Shown piece by piece: positions 4,273 to 12,529 of a stretch of DNA of 35,471 nucleotides. Both the position numbers and the translations under genes were made by a program. Each line of letters opens with the position of its first letter. The stretch's first letter is position 1. A model generated the notes under the pieces. The model had not been told where the DNA came from, did not search any database, and was given only the letters and a program-made list of their open reading frames with translations. This DNA comes from Clostridiaceae bacterium (lineage in GTDB: Bacteria > Bacillota > Clostridia > Saccharofermentanales > DTU023), in the NCBI GenBank assembly GCA_012838355.1, contig DUPJ01000152.1:1-35471 (forward strand), read 5' to 3'.

Positions 4273-5040
4273 ATGTCAGTCATGCCCGTCATTTTCCTGG
4301 GACACGGAAGCCCCATGGTCGCGATTGAGCAAAACGACATCACGAAAACCTGGGAGCGGATCGGCCGGAATATCCCCAAACCAAAGGCAATCCTGGCTAT
4401 TTCCGCGCACTGGTTTGGCAATTCAAACCGCGTTCAATCGGCAGAAAAACCGAACCAGATCTTCGACATGTACGGCTTTCCCCAGGCCCTGTATGAGGTT
4501 CGCTACGAACCAAAAGGCGACAAGACACTGAGCGAACGCGTCCAGACACTGCTGAAAGACGACATCCAAATCGACGACAGCTGGGGCATCGACCACGGCA
4601 CCTGGAGCGTCCTCGTTCACATGTTCCCCAATGCGGACATCCCGGTCGTTCAGCTCGCGATAAACATGGGGGCCCCGAGAACGACCCTGCTCGACATCGG
4701 CAGAAAACTGAAACCGCTCAGAGATGAAGGCTGCCTCGTCCTCGGCAGCGGCAATATCGTCCACAATCTGCGCCGCGTGGAATGGAACCGCACGGACGGC
4801 ACCGAGGCTGCCAACCGCTTCGATGACTGGGTGGAAGAACGGATTCGTGCCCGCGACTTCACCGCGCTGGCAGACTACCAGTCCCATCCGGACGGAAGCT
4901 ACGCCGTACCGACCACAGATCACTACATTCCGCTGCTTTACGTACTCGGCATGGTCGACAGTGAAGACCGTATTGACGTCGTCAACCGCGTCCGTCAGAT
5001 GGGCTCCCTGTCCATGACGGGATACGTGTTCAGCCGCTGA
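4273..5040 (+). CDS. LigB-like extradiol ring-cleavage dioxygenase family protein (YgiD/DODA type)
   Basis: 255 residues, typical for the single-domain class III extradiol dioxygenases related to E. coli YgiD and plant DOPA dioxygenase. Likely metal and catalytic histidines are H11 (LGHGSPM), H46 (ISAHWFG), H108 (GIDHGTW), H164 (GNIVHNL) and H217 (TTDHYIPLLYVLG). Family members bind Zn or Fe and open catechol rings, or act on related small molecules. The presence of the gene in an apparent anaerobe leaves the true reaction open. GGGAG at 4261-4265 is the ribosome site. It is the last gene of the tkt operon. Confidence 0.88.
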   Translation: MSVMPVIFLGHGSPMVAIEQNDITKTWERIGRNIPKPKAILAISAHWFGNSNRVQSAEKPNQIFDMYGFPQALYEVRYEPKGDKTLSERVQTLLKDDIQIDDSWGIDHGTWSVLVHMFPNADIPVVQLAINMGAPRTTLLDIGRKLKPLRDEGCLVLGSGNIVHNLRRVEWNRTDGTEAANRFDDWVEERIRARDFTALADYQSHPDGSYAVPTTDHYIPLLYVLGMVDSEDRIDVVNRVRQMGSLSMTGYVFSR

Positions 5041-5061
5041 CTGTACGATCGGTACGAGGCG

Positions 5062-5090
5062 TTGACAGGCGGACTTTTCGTTGCTACTAT
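5062..5090 (+). promoter_or_regulatory. Sigma-70-type promoter of tRNA-Thr
   Basis: A perfect -35 TTGACA (5062-5067) is separated by exactly 17 bases from TACTAT (5085-5090). The tRNA begins 13 bases after the -10, as expected for a stable RNA gene with a short leader. Confidence 0.85.
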
Positions 5091-5102
5091 AACTTCTGTC
5101 GC

Positions 5103-5177
5103 GCCGAAGTGGCTCAGTGGTAGAGCAATTCACTCGTAATGAATAGGTCGTGAGTTCGACTCTCACCTTCGGCTCCA
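5103..5177 (+). tRNA. tRNA-Thr, anticodon CGU
   Basis: A 75-base cloverleaf. The acceptor stem GCCGAAG (5103-5109) pairs with CTTCGGC (5167-5173). A D arm with GCTC/GAGC, the anticodon stem ATTCA/TGAAT around loop CTCGTAA (anticodon CGT, reading ACG), and a T arm with GTTCGA are present. The 3' CCA is encoded (5175-5177) after discriminator T. Confidence 0.96.
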
Positions 5178-5183
5178 AGACAA

Positions 5184-5218
5184 GAATGCCGGCAGTTGAA
5201 AAACTCCCGGCATTTTTT
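5184..5218 (+). terminator. Rho-independent terminator after tRNA-Thr
   Basis: AATGCCGG (5185-5192) pairs with CCGGCATT (5207-5214), and an inner AGTT/AACT pairing gives a compact hairpin. It is followed by T residues to 5218. Bases 5219-5345 between this hairpin and the end of the convergent reverse transcriptase gene hold nothing recognisable. Confidence 0.9.
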
Positions 5219-5345
5219 AATTCACAAATTTTGCTTTCTTGCGGTGCAGTTTCAATAAGGGGGCATTCGTCTTCCGCACTCGGACTTCAGAGCGAAGCTG
5301 ACCGCGTCCAGGTTGTCCGAACCAGCGTGAAATCGCAGGGTCTGA

Positions 5346-6416
5346 TCAAAGCCGCATAACAGTGCTGGGATTGCTGTCAATTTCCTGTTTTTTTAATACA
5401 AATCTGGACAATGCTCTTTCCCGCAAGCGATAGGTATGACCGAAACTCAAGTGAGCATGGTAACTTGCCAGAACACGTTGTATGTCTTCATAATCCATCA
5501 ATCCTGAGGCATATGCCGTGCACATATATTTCAATCTGCGGCGGTATTTGCATTTCGTGCTCTGCCTGACTCGCTTTACTATCTTGCCGGAATCGGTCAG
5601 AAAAACATGAAATCCCAGATAATTCACGCCCTGACGGAGCGGGAATATCTGCGTTTTATCGTTGAATTCCAGTTTCAGCTCCTCCCCTAAATAGGTGCGC
5701 AGGCGGACAAGGCCATTTTGCAGATAAGCTTTGTCCTCGTGAATGATCACGCAATCATCCATATAGCGGGAATAATACTTAATGCGCATATCCTCCTTGA
5801 TCAGCCGGTCAAATCCGTCAAGATAATAGATGGCAAACCATTGACTCGTCTGATTGCCAAGCGGAAGGCCACGTCCCGGCTCGGTTTCGTAACTGTCAAT
5901 AATCATAAACAGAAGGCTTAGCACATCATCATCTGCAATAACTCTTCGCAATTTTGCCTTAAGCACATCATGGCTGATATGATCAAAAAACTTTCGAACA
6001 TCACATTTCAGAACATAGCCTGCAGCCCCGTGCCGGTTGTAATACTCGCGCAGGAATCCTGATACCCGCGCAAGCGCAAAATGGTTTCCTTTGCCGATGC
6101 GGCAGGCGGCATTATCATAGATCAGTTTCTTATCGAGCAAAGGACCAAGTACTTCGTCGCAAAGGCAATGCTGAACAACACGGTCTTTATAGTGCAATGC
6201 ATGGATAAGCCGCTCCTTCGGCTCATGCACAAAGAAACGGTAATAACCGGAAATCGAGTATGTTTTCTGCTGCAATGAATCGGACAGACTGGACAAGCTG
6301 CCGGCAAGATCAAGTTCAAACTCAATGACCTCTTTCGTTGATCTCTTGCCTTTGCGTGCTGTCTTATGCGCCTGATAAAGATTCATGAAATCCCATATTC
6401 TCTCGTACTCACTCAC
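5346..6416 (-). CDS. Diversity-generating retroelement reverse transcriptase
   Basis: 356 residues. The reverse transcriptase motifs run in order: a basic N-terminal region, KCDVRKFFDHI with catalytic D139, LPLGNQTSQ at 184-192, YMDD at 218-221 with the other two catalytic Asp, and NYLGFHVF. GNQTSQ is diagnostic: DGR enzymes have an SQ here where group II intron and retroviral enzymes have other residues. There is no maturase X domain and no HNH endonuclease, and the size fits DGR enzymes. With Avd, such enzymes copy the template RNA and misincorporate opposite adenines. The start is GTG at 6416-6414, with AAGGA about 7 bases upstream; ATG at codon 11 is an alternative. It is the last gene of the operon. 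GC is low by hand count (29/60 at 5401-5460, 26/60 at 6121-6180). Confidence 0.95.
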   Translation of the reverse strand: MSEYERIWDFMNLYQAHKTARKGKRSTKEVIEFELDLAGSLSSLSDSLQQKTYSISGYYRFFVHEPKERLIHALHYKDRVVQHCLCDEVLGPLLDKKLIYDNAACRIGKGNHFALARVSGFLREYYNRHGAAGYVLKCDVRKFFDHISHDVLKAKLRRVIADDDVLSLLFMIIDSYETEPGRGLPLGNQTSQWFAIYYLDGFDRLIKEDMRIKYYSRYMDDCVIIHEDKAYLQNGLVRLRTYLGEELKLEFNDKTQIFPLRQGVNYLGFHVFLTDSGKIVKRVRQSTKCKYRRRLKYMCTAYASGLMDYEDIQRVLASYHAHLSFGHTYRLRERALSRFVLKKQEIDSNPSTVMRL

Positions 6417-6617
6417 GCATAGATCCTTAACGCATCAGCGGGGTGAAATGCCCCTGTGCACAAGGACACCCCACCGTAAGGACCGAAAACGAACGCGTAA
6501 GGTCCTGCCGCCGAAAAGTGTTCTCCCGATCCAAAAACCGGGAGGGAATTCGATTCCTTTGCTCTCTGCACGGGCCTCCGTACTTACGGTAAGGCTTCAG
6601 GCACACATGAGAGCAAT
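6417..6617 (-). ncRNA. Structured spacer of the DGR template RNA between template repeat and reverse transcriptase gene
   Basis: No plausible protein is encoded in these 201 bases, but they are rich in short inverted repeats: AGGACC (6479-6484) with GGTCCT (6501-6506), CTCCCG (6523-6528) with CGGGAG (6539-6544), GGAAT (6545-6549) with ATTCC (6553-6557), and GCCT-CCGTA (6574-6582) with TACGG-AGGC (6585-6595). The motif GTAAGG recurs three times. In the studied Bordetella phage DGR, the region 3' of the template repeat folds and is bound by the reverse transcriptase-Avd complex for priming. The same role is inferred here by position and structure. Confidence 0.6.
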
Positions 6618-6737
6618 GCGGGGCGAACGGCTTCATTAGTATTGTTGACATTATTGCCATTGTTGTTGACAGAGCCGTCCGTATTGACGTTTGCAGCATT
6701 GTTGTCATTATTGCCGGGCGACCGAAGCCACCACCAA
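6618..6737 (-). repeat. DGR template repeat (TR)
   Basis: 120 non-coding bases that align without gaps to the end of the TIR-receptor gene (7307-7426, offset 689). Read on the minus strand in the receptor's frame, it would encode the same WWLRSPG...EAVRPA frame, but 14 variable positions are AAC or AAT (Asn) codons, the typical adenine-loaded template design. It starts 36 bases after the Avd stop and is followed by the structured spacer. A 134-residue open frame across it is out of frame with the receptor and not credible as a gene. Confidence 0.95.
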
Positions 6738-6773
6738 ACCACCCATTCAATCGAATCCCCGGATTAAAGCCCG

Positions 6774-7163
6774 CTAAGACTGCAATCTCTTTCTGTCGCT
6801 GTTGATCCACGCACCGAGCAGATTTTGACAATCTGCGACCTGCCTTGATATCTGCTCGTATTGTTTTGCGAGGATACAGCCCTGTTCAAAAGCGAGTAGC
6901 GAAAAGTACCCGGAAATTTTCAAATCCGTCAGCGCCTTGTGCTGATATTCCAGTCTCTTTTCACATGCCGCAGCATTCTCTTTGGTAATGAACGTATCGT
7001 TCGCTCTATAAATGTTCTCGATAACACTGAGCGTCAAATTCTGCATGCGACTGACGAAAGTAAAGCGAAAGTGTTTTGGCGATTTTTGCGTAACCGCCAT
7101 AACATAAGCACACAAGTCCTTTGCTTTCGTAACGACGATTAATTCGCTTGGCTGCCTCTGCAT
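6774..7163 (-). CDS. avd: DGR accessory variability determinant (Avd-like four-helix bundle protein)
   Basis: 129 residues, start ATG at 7163-7161 with a GGGGGAGGAG ribosome site about 10 bases upstream. The frame is open further upstream through the receptor's 3' end, but that part is a shadow of the variable repeat. The protein is all-helical and basic, with the pattern FTFVSRMQNLTLSVIENIY, RLEYQHKALTDLK, FEQGCILAKQYEQI and LLGAWINSDRK shared by bacterial Avd/four-helix-bundle proteins found beside DGR reverse transcriptases. Avd forms a pentameric basic barrel that binds the reverse transcriptase and template RNA and is needed for mutagenic copying. Its place between target gene and template repeat fits this role. 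Confidence 0.9.
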   Translation of the reverse strand: MQRQPSELIVVTKAKDLCAYVMAVTQKSPKHFRFTFVSRMQNLTLSVIENIYRANDTFITKENAAACEKRLEYQHKALTDLKISGYFSLLAFEQGCILAKQYEQISRQVADCQNLLGAWINSDRKRLQS

Positions 7164-7188
7164 CCAAAAACGCTCCTCCCCCAAATTT

Positions 7189-7209
7189 CCGCCCCGCCTG
7201 CGGCGGGGC
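7189..7209 (-). promoter_or_regulatory. GC-rich hairpin downstream of the variable repeat
   Basis: CGCCCCGC (7189-7196) pairs perfectly with GCGGGGCG (7202-7209) around a five-base loop. It lies 97 bases beyond the 3' end of the variable repeat and 64 bases after the receptor stop. It has no T tract on the minus strand, so it is a poor intrinsic terminator. It may be a DGR-associated DNA hairpin/cruciform or an mRNA-stabilising stem. Confidence 0.55.
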
Positions 7210-7272
7210 GATAGCCCGCCAACTTGTGCACTAACCGCTAATTTTTGCGCTTGCGCACCTTGATTTGAAGAT

Positions 7273-9801
7273 TCATGATTGCAGATTTGAAACATCAATC
7301 CAAAAAGCGGGGCGAACGGCTTCATAAGTATTGTAGACACCATAGCCAAAGTTGTAGACGGAGCCGTCCGTACTGACGTATGCAGCAATGTTGCCACTAA
7401 AGCCGGGCGACCGAAGCCACCACCAACAGGTGCCACGATCCGATACATAGGCACCTTGCGCTGTGGCATACACCGTGGGAAATGCTTGCCGTGCATTCTT
7501 CGTTGGGAAATATTGTTCCGCCTCATCAATACTCATCAAAAATATCTGATCCGTTGTGTTGTTGCCACCTCTTGTTCCATATCTTGCATTGTTCGGATTC
7601 GCAAGTGTGACGGTTGGTATATACACCTGCTCTTCCGCGCTGAAGGCGGTGTTCATAAAGGTTTCATTAAGCCACTGGCGTATAGCGCTCGTCTCCCACG
7701 TCACTCCTGTGAGTTCCGGATGGTACTGTTTGCAATCCAAACCATATCTGCTGATCACCAGAACACGGTCGTTTTCCTTCGCCAAGACTTGCCATTCAAT
7801 CCCTTCCTTGCCATTGCCTGTATCATTGTCTTGCTCATACGCACCGAAGTATACCGTGTCACCAACTTCCGCTCCGGCAATGAGTGTAATTTGAATCTCG
7901 GCAAGTTTCGCCTGGCTGTCCTTGTATTCACCAAGTTCCGTCAGAAGCGCATAGGCATTGGCGAATTCTTCCGCCTCGATCAGCGACAGCGCTCTCTCAT
8001 ATATCAGTTGGGCGCTGTCCTTGTATTCACCAAGTTCTGTCAGAAGCGCATAGGCATTGTCGTAGTCTTCTGCTTCGATCAGCGCCAGTGCGTTGTTATA
8101 CTTGATCATTGGAAAGATGACGGTAATCAGAAGGACGGCAATCGCGGCTGCAATGGCAACAAGGGAGCCAGTCCAGGCAAGAATCCGCTTGTTTCGTTTC
8201 GCACGCCGTTCTGCAGCAATGCGATCCGCTTCTTCCTTTGCCTTTATTTCTTCAATTCTTGCCCGGCAGACATTGATCTGTTCATCGGCATCCTTCCAGC
8301 CGGAAATGGTCTCCAGTTGACGAATAACCGTAAAGTATCGCTCTACACTATTTCCGCCACGCACGCTTCCGCGCATGGCTTGTATGGCAGCCTGGTAAAC
8401 AGCATCTTTTCGGGCTATCTCCGCGTTCTCTTTGCATACCTGCTGCAATGCCAACGCATCTTTATACTCCGGGATCGACGCGAATGTATATGCCACAGCG
8501 TTGAACTCATTTTCCGAGTGCGCGCGATTCATCGCTGTCAGCGCTGTGGTGTATATGTTCTCTAAACGGGCATTTTCATTGCGCTCATTGATGTGATCGA
8601 TGTAACCAGTCAATTTCGTTCGCAAGGCATCATCGGCAAAACGTAACGCTATACCGTAATTGTTAAAATTATCAAAAGGCTCGGCACACTCCTTCAGATC
8701 GGCTTGTTTGTGAACTTGCAGTTCCGCCATCAGCTTGCCGAGATATGCCTGAGCATTCTCCGGATCCTGGTCAAGCACTTTCTCACAGTACGCATCAGCT
8801 TCGTCCCAGTTGCCGTATTCAAGGAACATGAAGGCGCGTTTCAGGAGCGGGTCGATGCTGCCACTGCCGTTGACCACAACCGTCTCACGTACGTTTGCGG
8901 GTGTGCTGTCGGCCGTAATCTTCTTGATGCCCCGGATCAGGTCCTGCATGAACCCGAGCTTCGAAATATCCTGCGCCTGAAGGTGCGAAAATTCCTCCGG
9001 AAGATCATACGGATCCATGTCGCGATAAGCCGGTATGAGTATCTTCTTTTCGCCGTTTCGGATGAGCGCGAGATAACGGCTCCATTCGTTCTTCACCCAG
9101 ACCGCATTGAAGTACTCCGGCTTCGTCGCCAGTACGACCATGACTTTTGCCGAATTCAAGGCAGCAAAGATATACGGCTCGTATGCGGTGCCGAGTTTGT
9201 CCTCCAGCGTGATGCGCGAGAAGAAGACCTTGAAGCCCTCATGGCTGAGCTGATGGTAAAGATCGTTCGCCAAAACCGAGTCCGGTGTTCGCCGGCCGTG
9301 CTCGTCCGTCTCCTTGTAGCAGATGAAGACATCAAACGGTTCCTCTTTCTGAGAAATGGCGAGAATCCCTTTCTGGATCGCATTGATCGTGCCGGCCTCT
9401 TCTACATATAGTTCGCGCTGGCCCGCATCGGCAAACTGAAGGGCTGATTTGTAATTGTCATCATCAAAGACTGAGGTGAACTGTGCGCGGTTGACGGTCG
9501 GCACACGACGGCGGCTTGCCGGATCCTCCACGTATTCAATCCCATAGCGGCAGAGCACAATGGACCAGTACGCTTCCGCATCGCTGCTGTCCTCAGTGAG
9601 GATCTGCTCGTAAATCCCCATCGCCTTGTCAAATTCATTGTTGCGGCGAAAATGGTTGGCCCGGTCATACAGATTCGCTCGCCGGTCATCGTCCAGTTTC
9701 GGCAGCGTCTGCTTCGTTCCGCAGCTGTCACAGACAGCAACCGTATCCCCCGGATTGAATTCCAGTGTGCCGCCGCACATCTTGCATTTGAATATCGTCA
9801 C
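7273..9801 (-). CDS. DGR target: zinc ribbon-TIR-transmembrane-DUF6273 (C-type-lectin-like) receptor
   Basis: 842 residues. In order: an N-terminal zinc ribbon (C6, C9, C24, C27); a TPR-like helical region around 42-90; a TIR domain around 154-300 beginning FDVFICYKETD, with E208 in GTAYEPYI at the position of the catalytic Glu of TIR NADases; further helical repeats (about 316-510); a basic stretch (RRAKRNKR, 532-539); a transmembrane helix at about 541-563; two 33-residue TPR/SEL-like repeats (569-630); and a DUF6273 formylglycine-enzyme/C-type-lectin-like domain from 645 to the end. The basic residues before the helix predict TIR inside and DUF6273 outside. Residues 793-832 are encoded by the variable repeat. 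The start is GTG, with GGGAGG 9 bases upstream. It is the third gene of the operon. The ligand and TIR activity are inferred, not shown. Confidence 0.93.
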   Translation of the reverse strand: MTIFKCKMCGGTLEFNPGDTVAVCDSCGTKQTLPKLDDDRRANLYDRANHFRRNNEFDKAMGIYEQILTEDSSDAEAYWSIVLCRYGIEYVEDPASRRRVPTVNRAQFTSVFDDDNYKSALQFADAGQRELYVEEAGTINAIQKGILAISQKEEPFDVFICYKETDEHGRRTPDSVLANDLYHQLSHEGFKVFFSRITLEDKLGTAYEPYIFAALNSAKVMVVLATKPEYFNAVWVKNEWSRYLALIRNGEKKILIPAYRDMDPYDLPEEFSHLQAQDISKLGFMQDLIRGIKKITADSTPANVRETVVVNGSGSIDPLLKRAFMFLEYGNWDEADAYCEKVLDQDPENAQAYLGKLMAELQVHKQADLKECAEPFDNFNNYGIALRFADDALRTKLTGYIDHINERNENARLENIYTTALTAMNRAHSENEFNAVAYTFASIPEYKDALALQQVCKENAEIARKDAVYQAAIQAMRGSVRGGNSVERYFTVIRQLETISGWKDADEQINVCRARIEEIKAKEEADRIAAERRAKRNKRILAWTGSLVAIAAAIAVLLITVIFPMIKYNNALALIEAEDYDNAYALLTELGEYKDSAQLIYERALSLIEAEEFANAYALLTELGEYKDSQAKLAEIQITLIAGAEVGDTVYFGAYEQDNDTGNGKEGIEWQVLAKENDRVLVISRYGLDCKQYHPELTGVTWETSAIRQWLNETFMNTAFSAEEQVYIPTVTLANPNNARYGTRGGNNTTDQIFLMSIDEAEQYFPTKNARQAFPTVYATAQGAYVSDRGTCWWWLRSPGFSGNIAAYVSTDGSVYNFGYGVYNTYEAVRPAFWIDVSNLQS
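7307..7426 (-). repeat. DGR variable repeat (VR) at the 3' end of the TIR-receptor gene
   Basis: 120 bases, identical to the template repeat except at 16 sites. Fifteen of these are adenines in the template (coding strand): examples are AAT to TTT, AAT to AGT, GAC to GGC, AAC to TAC and AAT to GGT. All fifteen are non-synonymous and change 12 residues. The remaining difference is a silent TCT to TCC. The last 19 coding-strand bases (7325-7307) are identical and GC-rich, as expected for the initiation-of-mutagenic-homing end. Only ten codons follow before the stop. Confidence 0.95.
7916..8059 (-). repeat. Pair of 45-bp direct repeats, 99 bp apart, in the receptor stalk
   Basis: Bases 7916-7960 and 8015-8059 match at 44 of 45 positions. 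They encode the two copies of NAYALLTELGEYKDS in the helical repeats just outside the transmembrane helix. The 99-base period equals one 33-residue repeat, so unequal crossover here would add or remove whole repeats without changing frame. Confidence 0.85.
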
Positions 9802-9836
9802 GTCTCACTGCCTCCCGATGGTTGTTTGGTTATCTC

Positions 9837-10535
9837 TTACTTCAGCATTTTGCACTTGATGTTCCGCTCACTCACCAGGCGGATCACTTCGTCCGCCGCT
9901 TGTGCGCTATTGTCGGCACCAGAGCGTATAACCGTTGTGAAGTAAGCGAATTTCTCGGCTATTTCGGATTCCAGGCCGGCAAGCGCATCATCTGACATGG
10001 GGTCACTGTAGCGGATCGCTTCGAACACCTTTTTCGCCGCTGACCTTGCCTCATCATTGTCGGCTTTTGCGATGAGACTCTCGGCATCAGCCGTGAGTAA
10101 TTTTATGAAAAAGGTCTTGGCCTTTACCTTTGCATCAACGTCACCGATCAGCGCTGCAGCGGCACCGGCATTGATAACCGCCAAGGCACTGAATCCGAGA
10201 ATCAGCAGGCAGGCGACGATGCCAACCCAAACAGGCAGATCGGGGATGGCCATGCTCGCAATACCGACAATCACCGAAACGATCAGCGTCAGATAGCTGA
10301 TCCGGATGAGCGGCAGATTGAGAAACACCTTGTCCAGCCGATCCGTTCTGAACGCAAAAAAGGCACACACAAGCTGACCGATCAGTGCCAGGGTAATAAG
10401 GGCATAGCCCGGCCAGAACGCGCCCCCAAACTTGTTCATGCCGGCAAGTTCAGTCGGCGTCAGGAAAACAATCAGGTTGAATATGGCCAGCAGAATGACC
10501 CAGGCAATCAGGTAAAATTTGAAATACTTCTTCAT
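9837..10535 (-). CDS. Four-helix membrane protein with cytoplasmic C-terminal domain, unknown function
   Basis: 232 residues, not recognised as a named family. There are four hydrophobic segments at roughly 7-27, 43-62, 78-96 and 102-130, followed by a hydrophilic, helical C-terminal half rich in Ala, Glu and Asp (about 133-232). The start has a good GAGGAGGG ribosome site. It begins 15 bases after the SPFH stop and ends 35 bases before the TIR-receptor gene, so it is almost certainly co-transcribed with both. This placement makes it a candidate membrane partner of the TIR receptor or the SPFH scaffold. Confidence 0.8.
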   Translation of the reverse strand: MKKYFKFYLIAWVILLAIFNLIVFLTPTELAGMNKFGGAFWPGYALITLALIGQLVCAFFAFRTDRLDKVFLNLPLIRISYLTLIVSVIVGIASMAIPDLPVWVGIVACLLILGFSALAVINAGAAAALIGDVDAKVKAKTFFIKLLTADAESLIAKADNDEARSAAKKVFEAIRYSDPMSDDALAGLESEIAEKFAYFTTVIRSGADNSAQAADEVIRLVSERNIKCKMLK

Positions 10536-10550
10536 CCGGACATCCCTCCT

Positions 10551-11802
10551 CTAAAGCTTTTCGCCGCACTCAAGGCAGAACTTAGCGCCGTCGGGAACGT
10601 CGTTCCCGCATTGCGGGCACGCTCTGACTAATCTATGACCGCACTCGGGACAAAATTTGCCCTTAATAACCATCTTCTTGCAGCCAGGACACAAAACCAT
10701 GTTGTCCGGTACCAGATTGACCTTTTCACCGCATTCGAGACAGAACTGGGCACCCTCCGGCAACACTGAACCGCATGATGGACATGCCGTTTTTTGTGTC
10801 TGCGCTGCCGGTTGTTCCGCCGTATTCAAGGCGTTATTGACCGCACCGCCGACGAGTCCGCCTACCGCGCCGCCAACACCGGCCATCGTGCCGAGTCCGA
10901 CCCCCATATTGGTGAACTGGCCGACCGCCTCATTCTGCGCCACCATCTCGGCAACGTCATAACCGCGTTCCTGCGCATACGTGTACCCTTCCTGCGCCCG
11001 TTTGGCAGCCTGTGCCTGCGAATCGATGATAACTTTCTGCGCATCGGTCTGCGCATAAATGATATCTGTCCGCTGACGCAGATTCGCTTCGGCAATATCC
11101 GCGTATTGTCGGAAATGCAGCTCCTTGAATTTCTCATACTGCCGGTCGCCATCCGGCTTGACGATCGTGGTGACGAAAAAACGCTCAAGCGAAACGCCGT
11201 AATCGGCAAAATCGGGCATCAGCAGCTTTTTGATGCTGTCTGAGAACAGCGTCAGATTCTCGTCAATTTCAAAAATATTGATCGCATTCGTTTTGATCAC
11301 CTGAGCCATATACGTTTTGACCCTTGTCATCAGGAATGCGCGAAACAGCGACACGAGCTTTTGCTGCCCGAGATAACTCTCGGTTCCGACCAGCTTCAAA
11401 AGCAGTCTGCGGCTGTCGTCCGCACGAAGGCTCATCTCGCCGGATGCCCCGATGGAAATCGGGAAACCATAAGTCGGTTCAACATACTGGATCTTTGAGT
11501 CGGTGCCCCACTTAAGCGACATCTGCTCCACCTTGTTGATGAAATAGACATGGCAGTGAAACGGCGTTTTGTCACCGGTTACCCGATGAAAAACTCTCCC
11601 AATAATGGGGATATTCTGCGTTTCCAGCGTGTGACGGCCCGGACCGAACAGATCCAAAGCCTGCCCGTTCATAAAAAAATATCGCTTCCTGGCTCTCATG
11701 AACGATCAGCTGCGTCAGACTATTGAAATTTTCACTGGGGTGTTTCCAGATAAAGGTCGTGTTATCGCCCTCATACTTGATGATGTCAGCTATTTGTGCC
11801 AT
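10551..11802 (-). CDS. SPFH-domain protein (YdjI / 'virion core protein' type) with C-terminal zinc ribbons, apparent frameshift
   Basis: The protein lies in two frames. The first, from the ATG at 11802 (GGAGGGGG upstream), gives 43 residues: MAQIADIIKYEG...TQLIVHESQEAIFF. The second continues MNGQALDLFGPGRHTLETQNIP to the stop. Together they match the normal family N-terminus without a gap. The switch falls in a run of seven A (11673-11679; seven T on the coding strand), and one base fewer would give an intact 416-residue protein. The SPFH domain covers about 30-250, then an Ala/Gln-rich helix, a Gly-rich segment, and several CxxC zinc ribbons (CPSCG, CLECG, CPGCK, CPECG, CPQCG, CLECG). B. 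subtilis YdjI belongs to a membrane-stress operon with PspA. First gene of the operon. The frameshift may be a sequencing error, slippage-corrected or real. Confidence 0.85.
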
Positions 11803-11842
11803 GAGTACCCCCTCCATACTGAAACATGACAGATATCACGTA

Positions 11843-11865
11843 AAGTGCACATAAAATATGCACTT
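11843..11865 (-). promoter_or_regulatory. Putative operator palindrome of the SPFH-TIR-DGR operon
   Basis: AAGTGCA (11843-11849) and TGCACTT (11859-11865) form a perfect 7-bp inverted repeat with a 9-base A+T spacer. It begins a few bases after the predicted transcription start and well before the first gene, a usual place for a repressor site. Confidence 0.5.
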
Positions 11866-11874
11866 GCTGAACAT

Positions 11875-11903
11875 ATTAAATAGATAACAGGACATAAAAG
11901 CAA
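11875..11903 (-). promoter_or_regulatory. Putative promoter of the SPFH-TIR-DGR operon
   Basis: On the minus strand, TTGCTT (11903-11898) is followed after 17 bases by TTTAAT (11880-11875), a good -10 match with a weak -35. The transcript would start near 11868 and could run through all five genes to 5346, since no terminator is seen between them. Confidence 0.5.
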
Positions 11904-11944
11904 GGGAAATGTCGGAAATTGCATAAGCAAAGCAGCGTCGACGT

Positions 11945-11964
11945 GTAACGTTGCGAAGCGTTAC
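11945..11964. repeat. Inverted repeat after the chromate transporter gene
   Basis: GTAACG (11945-11950) and CGTTAC (11959-11964) flank eight bases, directly after the stop at 11966. No T tract follows, so it is a weak terminator candidate. Confidence 0.4.
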
Positions 11965-11965
11965 T

Positions 11966-12529
11966 CTAAAACCGTACCCCTAAAAGATACAGCACCCCGG
12001 CCAGCGCACCGGTCGTCAGCATGACGGGCAGTGAACTCCACTTGAAGCGCTGCACAAGAAAGACGCCAAGCGCGATGATGATGGTCAAAATCAAACTGAT
12101 CCAGTCGAAGCCGCCGGTATCGGTCTGAAGTGTGAGCAGGAGGATGGATAAACCTGCCGAGGTGATCAGGGCGACCACGATCGGTCTCAGTGTCTGCAGA
12201 ACGCCTTTGACAAAGGAGAGTTCGGAATATTTTGCGTAGAGGTAGGCCAGGATCGAAATGATGATTGCAGCGGGCAGGACATTGCCGAAGGTCGCAACCA
12301 AAGCGCCGGTTATGCCGCCCACGCGGGTGCCGACAAAGGTCGCGGCATTGATCGCGATCGGTCCCGGTGTCATCTGGGAAATGGCGATCAGGTCGGCGAA
12401 TTCGGTGAGCGAGAGCCAGCCTTCCATTTCCACGATCCGGCTCTGGATCAGGGGCAGTGCCGCATAGCCTCCGCCAAAGCTGAAGAGCCCGATCTGAAAA
12501 AAGTTCCAGAACAACTCGAGATACATCAT
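11966..12529 (-). CDS. chrA: Chromate transporter subunit (CHR family, half-size)
   Basis: About 187 residues, one CHR domain with five or six membrane segments. Signatures are FSFGGGYAALPLIQ near the N-terminus and QMTPGPIAINAATFVG after it. Half-size CHR proteins work as pairs with the neighbouring subunit to expel chromate, probably by exchange with sulfate, although many family members have no tested substrate. The ATG at 12529 overlaps the TGA of the upstream half by one base; GTG at 12532 or ATG at 12526 are alternatives. Last gene of the long secA operon. Confidence 0.88.
   Translation of the reverse strand: MMYLELFWNFFQIGLFSFGGGYAALPLIQSRIVEMEGWLSLTEFADLIAISQMTPGPIAINAATFVGTRVGGITGALVATFGNVLPAAIIISILAYLYAKYSELSFVKGVLQTLRPIVVALITSAGLSILLLTLQTDTGGFDWISLILTIIIALGVFLVQRFKWSSLPVMLTTGALAGVLYLLGVRF

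Follow-up and report, generated by a model that had tools for sequence, protein, structure and literature searches.

An apparently intact diversity-generating retroelement serving a membrane-spanning TIR protein in a clostridial genome

Can a bacterium direct targeted hypermutation at the outer face of a TIR-domain protein in its own membrane? The question is raised by contig DUPJ01000152.1 of a draft Clostridiaceae genome (assembly GCA_012838355.1), which was analysed over its whole length of 35,471 nt (the window). A first-pass annotation had placed in it a complete diversity-generating retroelement (DGR) with a TIR-domain target, and had read this target as a receptor that changes its own ligand site. 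The locus is a complete, apparently intact DGR serving a membrane-spanning TIR protein. All of the parts named in the annotation were confirmed, in the order target, Avd, template repeat (TR), structured spacer and reverse transcriptase (RT), and all lie on the minus strand. The RT, Avd and target reading frames are all open. The features of the retroelement are as follows.

7273-9801, minus strand: DGR target, 842 aa, GTG start; zinc ribbon, TPR, TIR (residues 158-281), TPR, transmembrane (TM) segment (548-566), two TPR-like repeats and DUF6273 (677-836)
7304-7426, minus strand: variable repeat (VR), in the target gene close to its 3' end
7190-7258, minus strand: two predicted hairpins between the target stop codon and Avd, z -2.2
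6774-7163, minus strand: avd accessory gene, 129 aa, ATG at 7163
6615-6737, minus strand: TR, 36 adenines; 19 of 40 codons variable, stops impossible
6417-6614, minus strand: structured spacer RNA between TR and RT, folded together with the last TR bases
5346-6416, minus strand: DGR RT, 356 aa, GTG start, LGNQTSQ and YMDD

The retroelement and its closest relatives

A direct-repeat search gave one pair, 6615-6737 and 7304-7426 (123 nt, ungapped, 86% identity). Read in the coding direction, TR and VR differ at 17 of the 123 positions (11 A>T, 5 A>G and one T>C). Template adenines account for 16 of the 17 mismatches, the confinement by which a DGR is recognized, though only 36 of the 123 TR bases are adenine (binomial P = 3.6e-8, or 1.1e-7 without the edge mismatch). 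The variable repeat that the annotation had placed at the 3' end of the target is borne out by this count, and a chance repeat was ruled out (P about 1e-7). The mutable TR codons are mostly AAY. With 19 changeable codons of 40, about 3.7e19 VR proteins are possible, and none of the changes reaches a stop codon. No further VR was found in the 2.06 Mb draft genome (183 contigs), where at an E value of 0.001 the TR matched only itself and the VR at 7304-7426.

The motifs GNQTSQ (here LGNQTSQ) and YMDD, also claimed in the annotation, were read directly in the RT sequence; we take the combination of (I/V/L)GxxxSQ with YxDD to be the DGR RT motif. The best PHROG match of the RT was 'Reverse transcriptase' (1.9e-118), and Pfam RVT_1 was matched as well. 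The best solved structure was 8ub7 (nine entries, 9.6e-44), presumably the BPP-1 DGR enzyme, although the listing reads only 'Reverse transcriptase'. Many general RT models were listed from PADLOC, and the NCBIfam matches (group II intron RT first at 1e-27, then Drt3a and others) were all below cut-off. The Avd protein matched PHROG 'Avd protein of DGR' (9e-23), as an accessory protein of Avd type should; its matches to the bAvd and DivGenRetAVD models of Pfam and NCBIfam were below their cut-offs.

Related cassettes were sought with the RT as query. Of 391 genomes drawn from the same class, 14 matched it at 1e-60, one of them the window's own. The nearest DGR (locus L104) comes from another family and is orthologous (Avd 77%, RT 60% and DUF6273 55% identity), with its parts in the same order. 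Its TR and VR (127 nt, 82% identity), mutated independently of the window's pair, differ at 23 positions, of which 21 are template adenines (8 to G, 7 to T and 6 to C) and two are G>T. In a third cassette (L129; Avd 62%, RT 54%), 12 of 12 TR/VR mismatches are at adenines. In RT searches of 118, 188, 391, 11, 32 and 295 genomes (overlapping sets), these two were the only close kin with this Avd type. Besides them, an Avd relic (L088) was obtained from the scan for target relatives described below. The other RT loci from these searches were read by eye and only in part; the DGRs of other relatives read in this way seem to stand beside tail-type or surface proteins. In L129 a MutS domain I gene (L129:1526-2101) sits between TR and RT.

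The RNA from the TR end to the RT folded with z = -2.9, one of 200 shuffles being as good. For the hairpins between target and Avd, seven of 200 shuffles folded as well; L104 also has hairpins in this interval (z -2.8). The spacers of the window and L104 aligned over 234 columns, including the TR end, with a mean column identity of 82%. Their common fold has 68 predicted pairs, of which 10 are changed on both sides and none is broken, a count made on two sequences with a fold derived from the same two and without a shuffle control. This covariation lends support to a conserved RNA, short of proof. An Rfam scan of positions 5000-12000 returned nothing except a tRNA.

Viral contigs were scanned for close relatives only; three matched the RT, at 36% identity, and none matched the target. 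A phage origin is not backed by these results, with which an older phage ancestry would be compatible.

The target protein

Four Pfam domains were found in the target above cut-off: TIR_2 (158-281, 2.4e-12), TPR_19, TPR_14 and DUF6273 (677-836, 3.5e-29). The TIR domain was also matched by two PDB TIR chains (4e-5 and 0.006). Cysteines are present at positions 6, 9, 24 and 27, where zinc-ribbon Pfam models match only below cut-off. One strong hydrophobic TM segment was found (548-566), preceded by R532, R533, K535, R536, K538 and R539 and followed by K567 and then acidic residues. Because basic residues precede the helix and a lysine and acids follow it, the TIR half should be inside, with a cytoplasmic N-terminus, and DUF6273 with the varied face outside. 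This single-pass N-in/C-out arrangement is predicted from hydropathy and charge alone. Beyond the helix, two TPR-like repeats (window 7915-8100; 87 nt, 86% identity, 99 nt apart) suggest a fairly recent duplication.

An alignment of 17 family proteins (L085, with a stop in this stretch, was omitted) shows W235 and E239 to be nearly invariant. The glutamate stands four residues after the tryptophan, which we take to be the catalytic position of a TIR NADase; at the residue level the target would qualify as one.

The VR falls in DUF6273, a domain described as C-lectin-like (PMC10743442). An AlphaFold model of the full chain had a mean predicted local distance difference test score (pLDDT) of 80 and a predicted template modelling score (pTM) of 0.37, so that the arrangement of the domains is not fixed by the model. 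For DUF6273 by itself the values were 95 and 0.91, and in this model the VR lies in the last strands. In the PDB the DUF6273 model had a single significant Foldseek match, 9qa6 (listed as an IgA peptidase of Thomasclavelia), and matched no known DGR target; the full-chain model retrieved several phage DUF6273 proteins. Matches in a PDB sequence search with DUF6273 were at chance level only.

To gauge natural variation at the VR codons, residue entropy was computed over 15 related DUF6273 domains that have no RT next to them. The set includes L088, while L092 was dropped for a stop codon and L085 is absent from the DUF6273 alignment. The 40 codons were divided into those with a template adenine at position 1 or 2 (19) and the rest (21). 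Entropy was 2.75 bits in the mutable class and 0.69 bits in the other (P = 1e-7, indicative only, the rows being related). The template appears to target a face that is variable across the DUF6273 fold family, which favours a binding face.

The TIR family and its neighbouring genes

In a single collection scan, 33 loci were found to encode relatives of the target. Of these, 16 are titled Clostridia or Clostridiales and 13 carry family or genus names that we take to be clostridial; the remaining four are Ca. Howiella, Bacillota, a deltaproteobacterium and a planctomycete. The only Avd match among them is a relic of about 30 codons (L088:2263-2352) adjoining a DUF6273 gene, the visible part of which has no TIR match; from its sequence, L088 is taken to be a decayed DGR. 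Adenine-biased repeat pairs were found in none of the 33 loci, bar a back-to-back tandem in L074.

Over the first 300 residues (the TIR half), the six closest loci show 85-88% identity. An ungapped comparison of five genes placed differences at 155-187 of 300 third codon positions and at 22-85 of the other positions. Because changes concentrate at third positions, the TIR half appears to be strongly constrained and not freshly spread. Conservation within the family is highest in this half and lowest in the C-terminal part. Among nine proteins scanned, the C-terminal parts hold RCC1 (L079), WG (L081) or RHS repeats (L069) or DUF6273 (L073, L074, L076), as if the C-terminal domains were exchangeable on a constant TIR half. 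The fusions of the same TIR chassis to repeats are at L079:3313-5787 (RCC1), L081:6001-8379 (WG) and L069:465-3359 (RHS). At least one TM segment was predicted in 30 of 42 family proteins, a set that leaves out TIR matches under 200 residues and in which five proteins are cut by contig ends.

Two genes stand upstream of the target in the window.

9837-10535, minus strand: 232-aa protein with four predicted TM segments; upstream same-strand neighbour of the target, recurring beside the TIR family
10551-11817, minus strand: SPFH/Band_7_1 and zinc-ribbon protein, with a frame shift near 11695 in this assembly

The SPFH protein consists of Band_7_1 and zinc ribbons (Pfam) and presumably resembles Bacillus subtilis YdjI. 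This gene pair (9837-11817) recurs ahead of TIR genes, mostly in clostridial genomes. For a count of neighbours, 35 loci were eligible (the 33 relatives, the window and L117, a locus of the L104 genome), and 27 had a TIR-half match of at least 200 residues. Six of the 27, with less than 3.5 kb upstream, were omitted. In the 21 that were left, window and L117 included, an SPFH match lies upstream on the same strand in 13 and the membrane gene upstream in 12; SPFH is downstream in three more, and neither was found in five. Together, the SPFH, membrane and TIR genes resemble a TIR system of three genes that does not depend on DGRs; the literature search gave no match for it.

L117 ends in a TIR-family gene preceded by SPFH, membrane and DUF4365 genes, the last of these (L117:9681-10214) lying between the membrane gene and the TIR gene. 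The final 77 nt of L117 equal an internal stretch of L104. A linkage of L104 to L117 is plausible on this ground, though not proven; since the sequences ahead of the shared 77 nt differ, the two may be paralogs.

The receptor reading and its alternatives

On the best reading, which we think probable, the target is a receptor at the cell surface, its TIR domain lies in the cytoplasm, and an apparently intact DGR rewrites it. Of the original claim, a DGR acting on a single-TM TIR protein stands, on the anatomy of the locus and the orthologous DGR. That the protein is a receptor rewriting its own ligand site we infer from the charge bias, which fits the topology, the position of the mutable codons on a variable DUF6273 face and the constant TIR half with its exchanged C-termini.

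By established DGR biology, the RT-Avd complex would copy TR RNA with errors at adenines, and the complementary DNA would replace the VR. About 19 DUF6273 residues would be randomised (about 4e19 sequences, no stops), leaving the TIR half constant. A ligand would be bound by DUF6273 outside the cell and the signal passed through the TM helix to the cytoplasmic TIR domain. The co-encoded SPFH and four-helix membrane proteins are probable partners of the TIR protein. Such a receptor would most likely serve to recognise variable surface threats (phages, competitors or toxins), leading to a TIR-driven self-limiting or stress response.

The annotation had also called a target with a TIR domain and a TM helix unusual. 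TIR-bearing DGR targets are already published (PMC7517822, PMC10907252, PMC8195603), and this part has to be softened; the single-pass, SPFH-linked form was not met in the literature searched. Cyanobacteria have multidomain DGR variable proteins in which the C-terminal domain varies, and TIR-like domains are listed among their parts (PMC7517822). These targets are mostly predicted to be cytosolic, with TIR a less common feature (PMC7517822), whereas the window target has a TM helix. The DGR 2 target of Thiohalocapsa PB-PSB1 (CHAT, TIR and CLec) also joins TIR to a varied lectin-like domain, and has been proposed as the sensor of a conflict system (PMC10907252). It is predicted to be cytoplasmic, contains CHAT and has a Trypco2 adaptor at its locus (PMC10907252), while the window target has one TM helix, TIR inside and VR outside (as predicted), an SPFH neighbour and DUF6273. 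Other Thiohalocapsa targets (DGR 9 target 1 and the second target of DGR 3) place CLec in the periplasm (PMC10907252).

STAND NTPase-FGS proteins, with N-terminal TIR among their effectors and often beside DGRs, likewise combine an effector with a varied domain (PMC8195603; similarly PMC10907252) and have been compared explicitly with hypermutating immune receptors (PMC8195603). In them a central NTPase links the TIR and varied domains, where the window target has a TM helix and TPR repeats. In phage tentaclins and other DUF6273 DGR targets, as in the window, DUF6273 bears the VR, on a surface beta-hairpin; the tentaclin-type targets are phage proteins, and TIR is not mentioned in the main text (PMC10743442). 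Membrane-bound targets are common in cellular DGRs, most clusters having TM segments or signal peptides and binding domains (PMC8144416); the word TIR is absent from the main text of this global survey. No DGR target of single-pass form with TIR inside and VR outside, and no SPFH linkage, was met in a literature search confined to passages of running text. No paper with DUF6273 and TIR together was found in a search of mainly freely available papers. The sole paper combining SPFH, TIR domain and zinc ribbon (PMC7159879) has SPFH only in the title of a reference. TIR in DGR targets and the likening to immune receptors are thus already in print; what is new here is the single-pass, SPFH-linked TIR protein.

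If the receptor reading is true, a single membrane helix would connect targeted hypermutation to a TIR signalling domain, and bacteria would have an equivalent of the diversified receptors of cell surfaces. The published proposals consulted here deal chiefly with multicellular bacteria and their conflict systems, in which the targets are often cytoplasmic (PMC10907252, PMC8195603); the window would carry the idea over to the cell surface and into a different lineage. The unit is compact (five genes and a template), and relatives with the same TIR chassis and no adjacent DGR would be its natural comparison. Only tentatively do we go further, to an anticipatory, antibody-like membrane receptor, probably of a gut clostridium, in which the DGR renews the outside surfaces on a constant TIR chassis held by the SPFH scaffold. 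The DGR-free relatives would then be fixed or formerly diversified versions, the DGR coming and going.

Several results weigh against a diversified receptor. The same entropy contrast (2.91 versus 0.98 bits) came out of a control with 20 DUF6273 domains whose loci have no TIR match. Because these domains behave likewise, the contrast would be a property of the fold and not of the window's receptor, and its explanation as a fossil of past DGR action in relatives is weakened. The topology is predicted from hydropathy and charge, and 12 of the 42 family proteins have no TM segment (two of them cut, one of only 321 aa). A search for other TIR-TM-DUF6273 genes beside DGR RTs, proposed in the annotation as a check, yielded the orthologous DGR L104 and the related L129; TIR, TM segment and DGR are seen in one piece only in the window. 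The L104 contig ends inside the target, before any TIR. The TIR gene of L117 is cut, and its visible part has no TM segment. The L129 target is also cut, and at 1e-8 the target query found nothing in that genome. No RT was found at 1e-4 in the examined stretches of the 33 relative loci, some of them short or at contig edges, and RTs at 1e-25 occur in only one of 32 relative genomes (two, at 34% identity). By this comparison the TIR family works without a DGR, and, since relatives' loci lack an RT, the DGR would be a rare addition to a common family. Defence libraries match the TIR domain only weakly (PADLOC PDC-S66 4e-5 and ThsB 0.008; NCBIfam ThcB4, NF058526, 8e-7 at 28 bits against a cut-off of 220). 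Similarity to Thoeris TIR proteins goes no further than this, and no Thoeris partner gene was noticed in the scanned frames. The SPFH frame is broken near 11695, by an assembly slip or a real lesion.

The alternative that survives best keeps the DGR as real and makes the TIR protein an envelope-stress or housekeeping receptor, as in B. subtilis PspA-YdjGHI, a system that we assume to be without a DGR. An SPFH/zinc-ribbon scaffold and a membrane protein would serve a TIR adaptor, and DUF6273 would tune the recognition of cell-wall or host glycans. We consider this rather unlikely. The recurring SPFH and membrane neighbours fit it, as do the RCC1, WG or RHS repeats that relatives bear in place of DUF6273. 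PspA-YdjGHI has PspA where the window has the TIR protein; in both, an SPFH protein is co-encoded with membrane proteins, which in B. subtilis anchor it, and this protein, YdjI, depends on its membrane partners and recruits PspA (PMC8581546). However, no PspA-like match was obtained in 16 window frames scanned with Pfam (part of all frames), and a huge random diversity would suit an arms race better than a fixed signal, which is an argument only.

It is less probable still that the DGR is decaying or recently dead, with parts that look intact and are no longer used. Such decay is seen in L088, where the Avd relic lies beside a DUF6273 gene; the upstream SPFH frame is broken and one TR/VR difference is off adenine. 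On the other hand, the RT, Avd and target are all open, the spacer RNA appears to be kept by compensatory changes, and the off-adenine differences are just one in 17.

An adhesin or phage decoy, in which the outside varied domain would mainly bind particles or cells and the TIR half would be incidental, is improbable. It would agree with the TM segments or signal peptides and binding domains of most cellular DGR target clusters (PMC8144416), and with the surface or tail-type proteins seen by eye beside relatives' DGRs. An incidental domain, however, should show the reverse of the pattern in this family, where conservation peaks in the TIR half and is lowest in the C-terminal part.

A metagenome assembly chimera or chance repeat, conceivable in a draft of 183 contigs, has a negligible probability given the adenine bias (P about 1e-7), the same order of DGR parts in L104 and the synteny of both flanks with a genome of the same genus (G001), for which the chimera was rejected.

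The flanks kept in G001 are transketolase-AKR-LigB and chromate transporter-xylose-isomerase-like-SecA. The block between them in the window (5178-11960) is absent from this slot, and neither target nor RT was found elsewhere in G001 at an E value of 0.001. Because the flanks are syntenic and the block is missing there, it would be an island, of an inferred extent of about 6.8 kb. A tRNA gene marks its edge.

5103-5177, plus strand: tRNA-Thr(CGT), at the edge of the variable block

A tRNA integration scar was considered and rejected, no second copy of the tRNA 3' end being present in the window. In G001 the slot is occupied by a DUF5050 gene and the tRNA-Thr, which lies on the opposite strand there, so the slot appears to have been rearranged.

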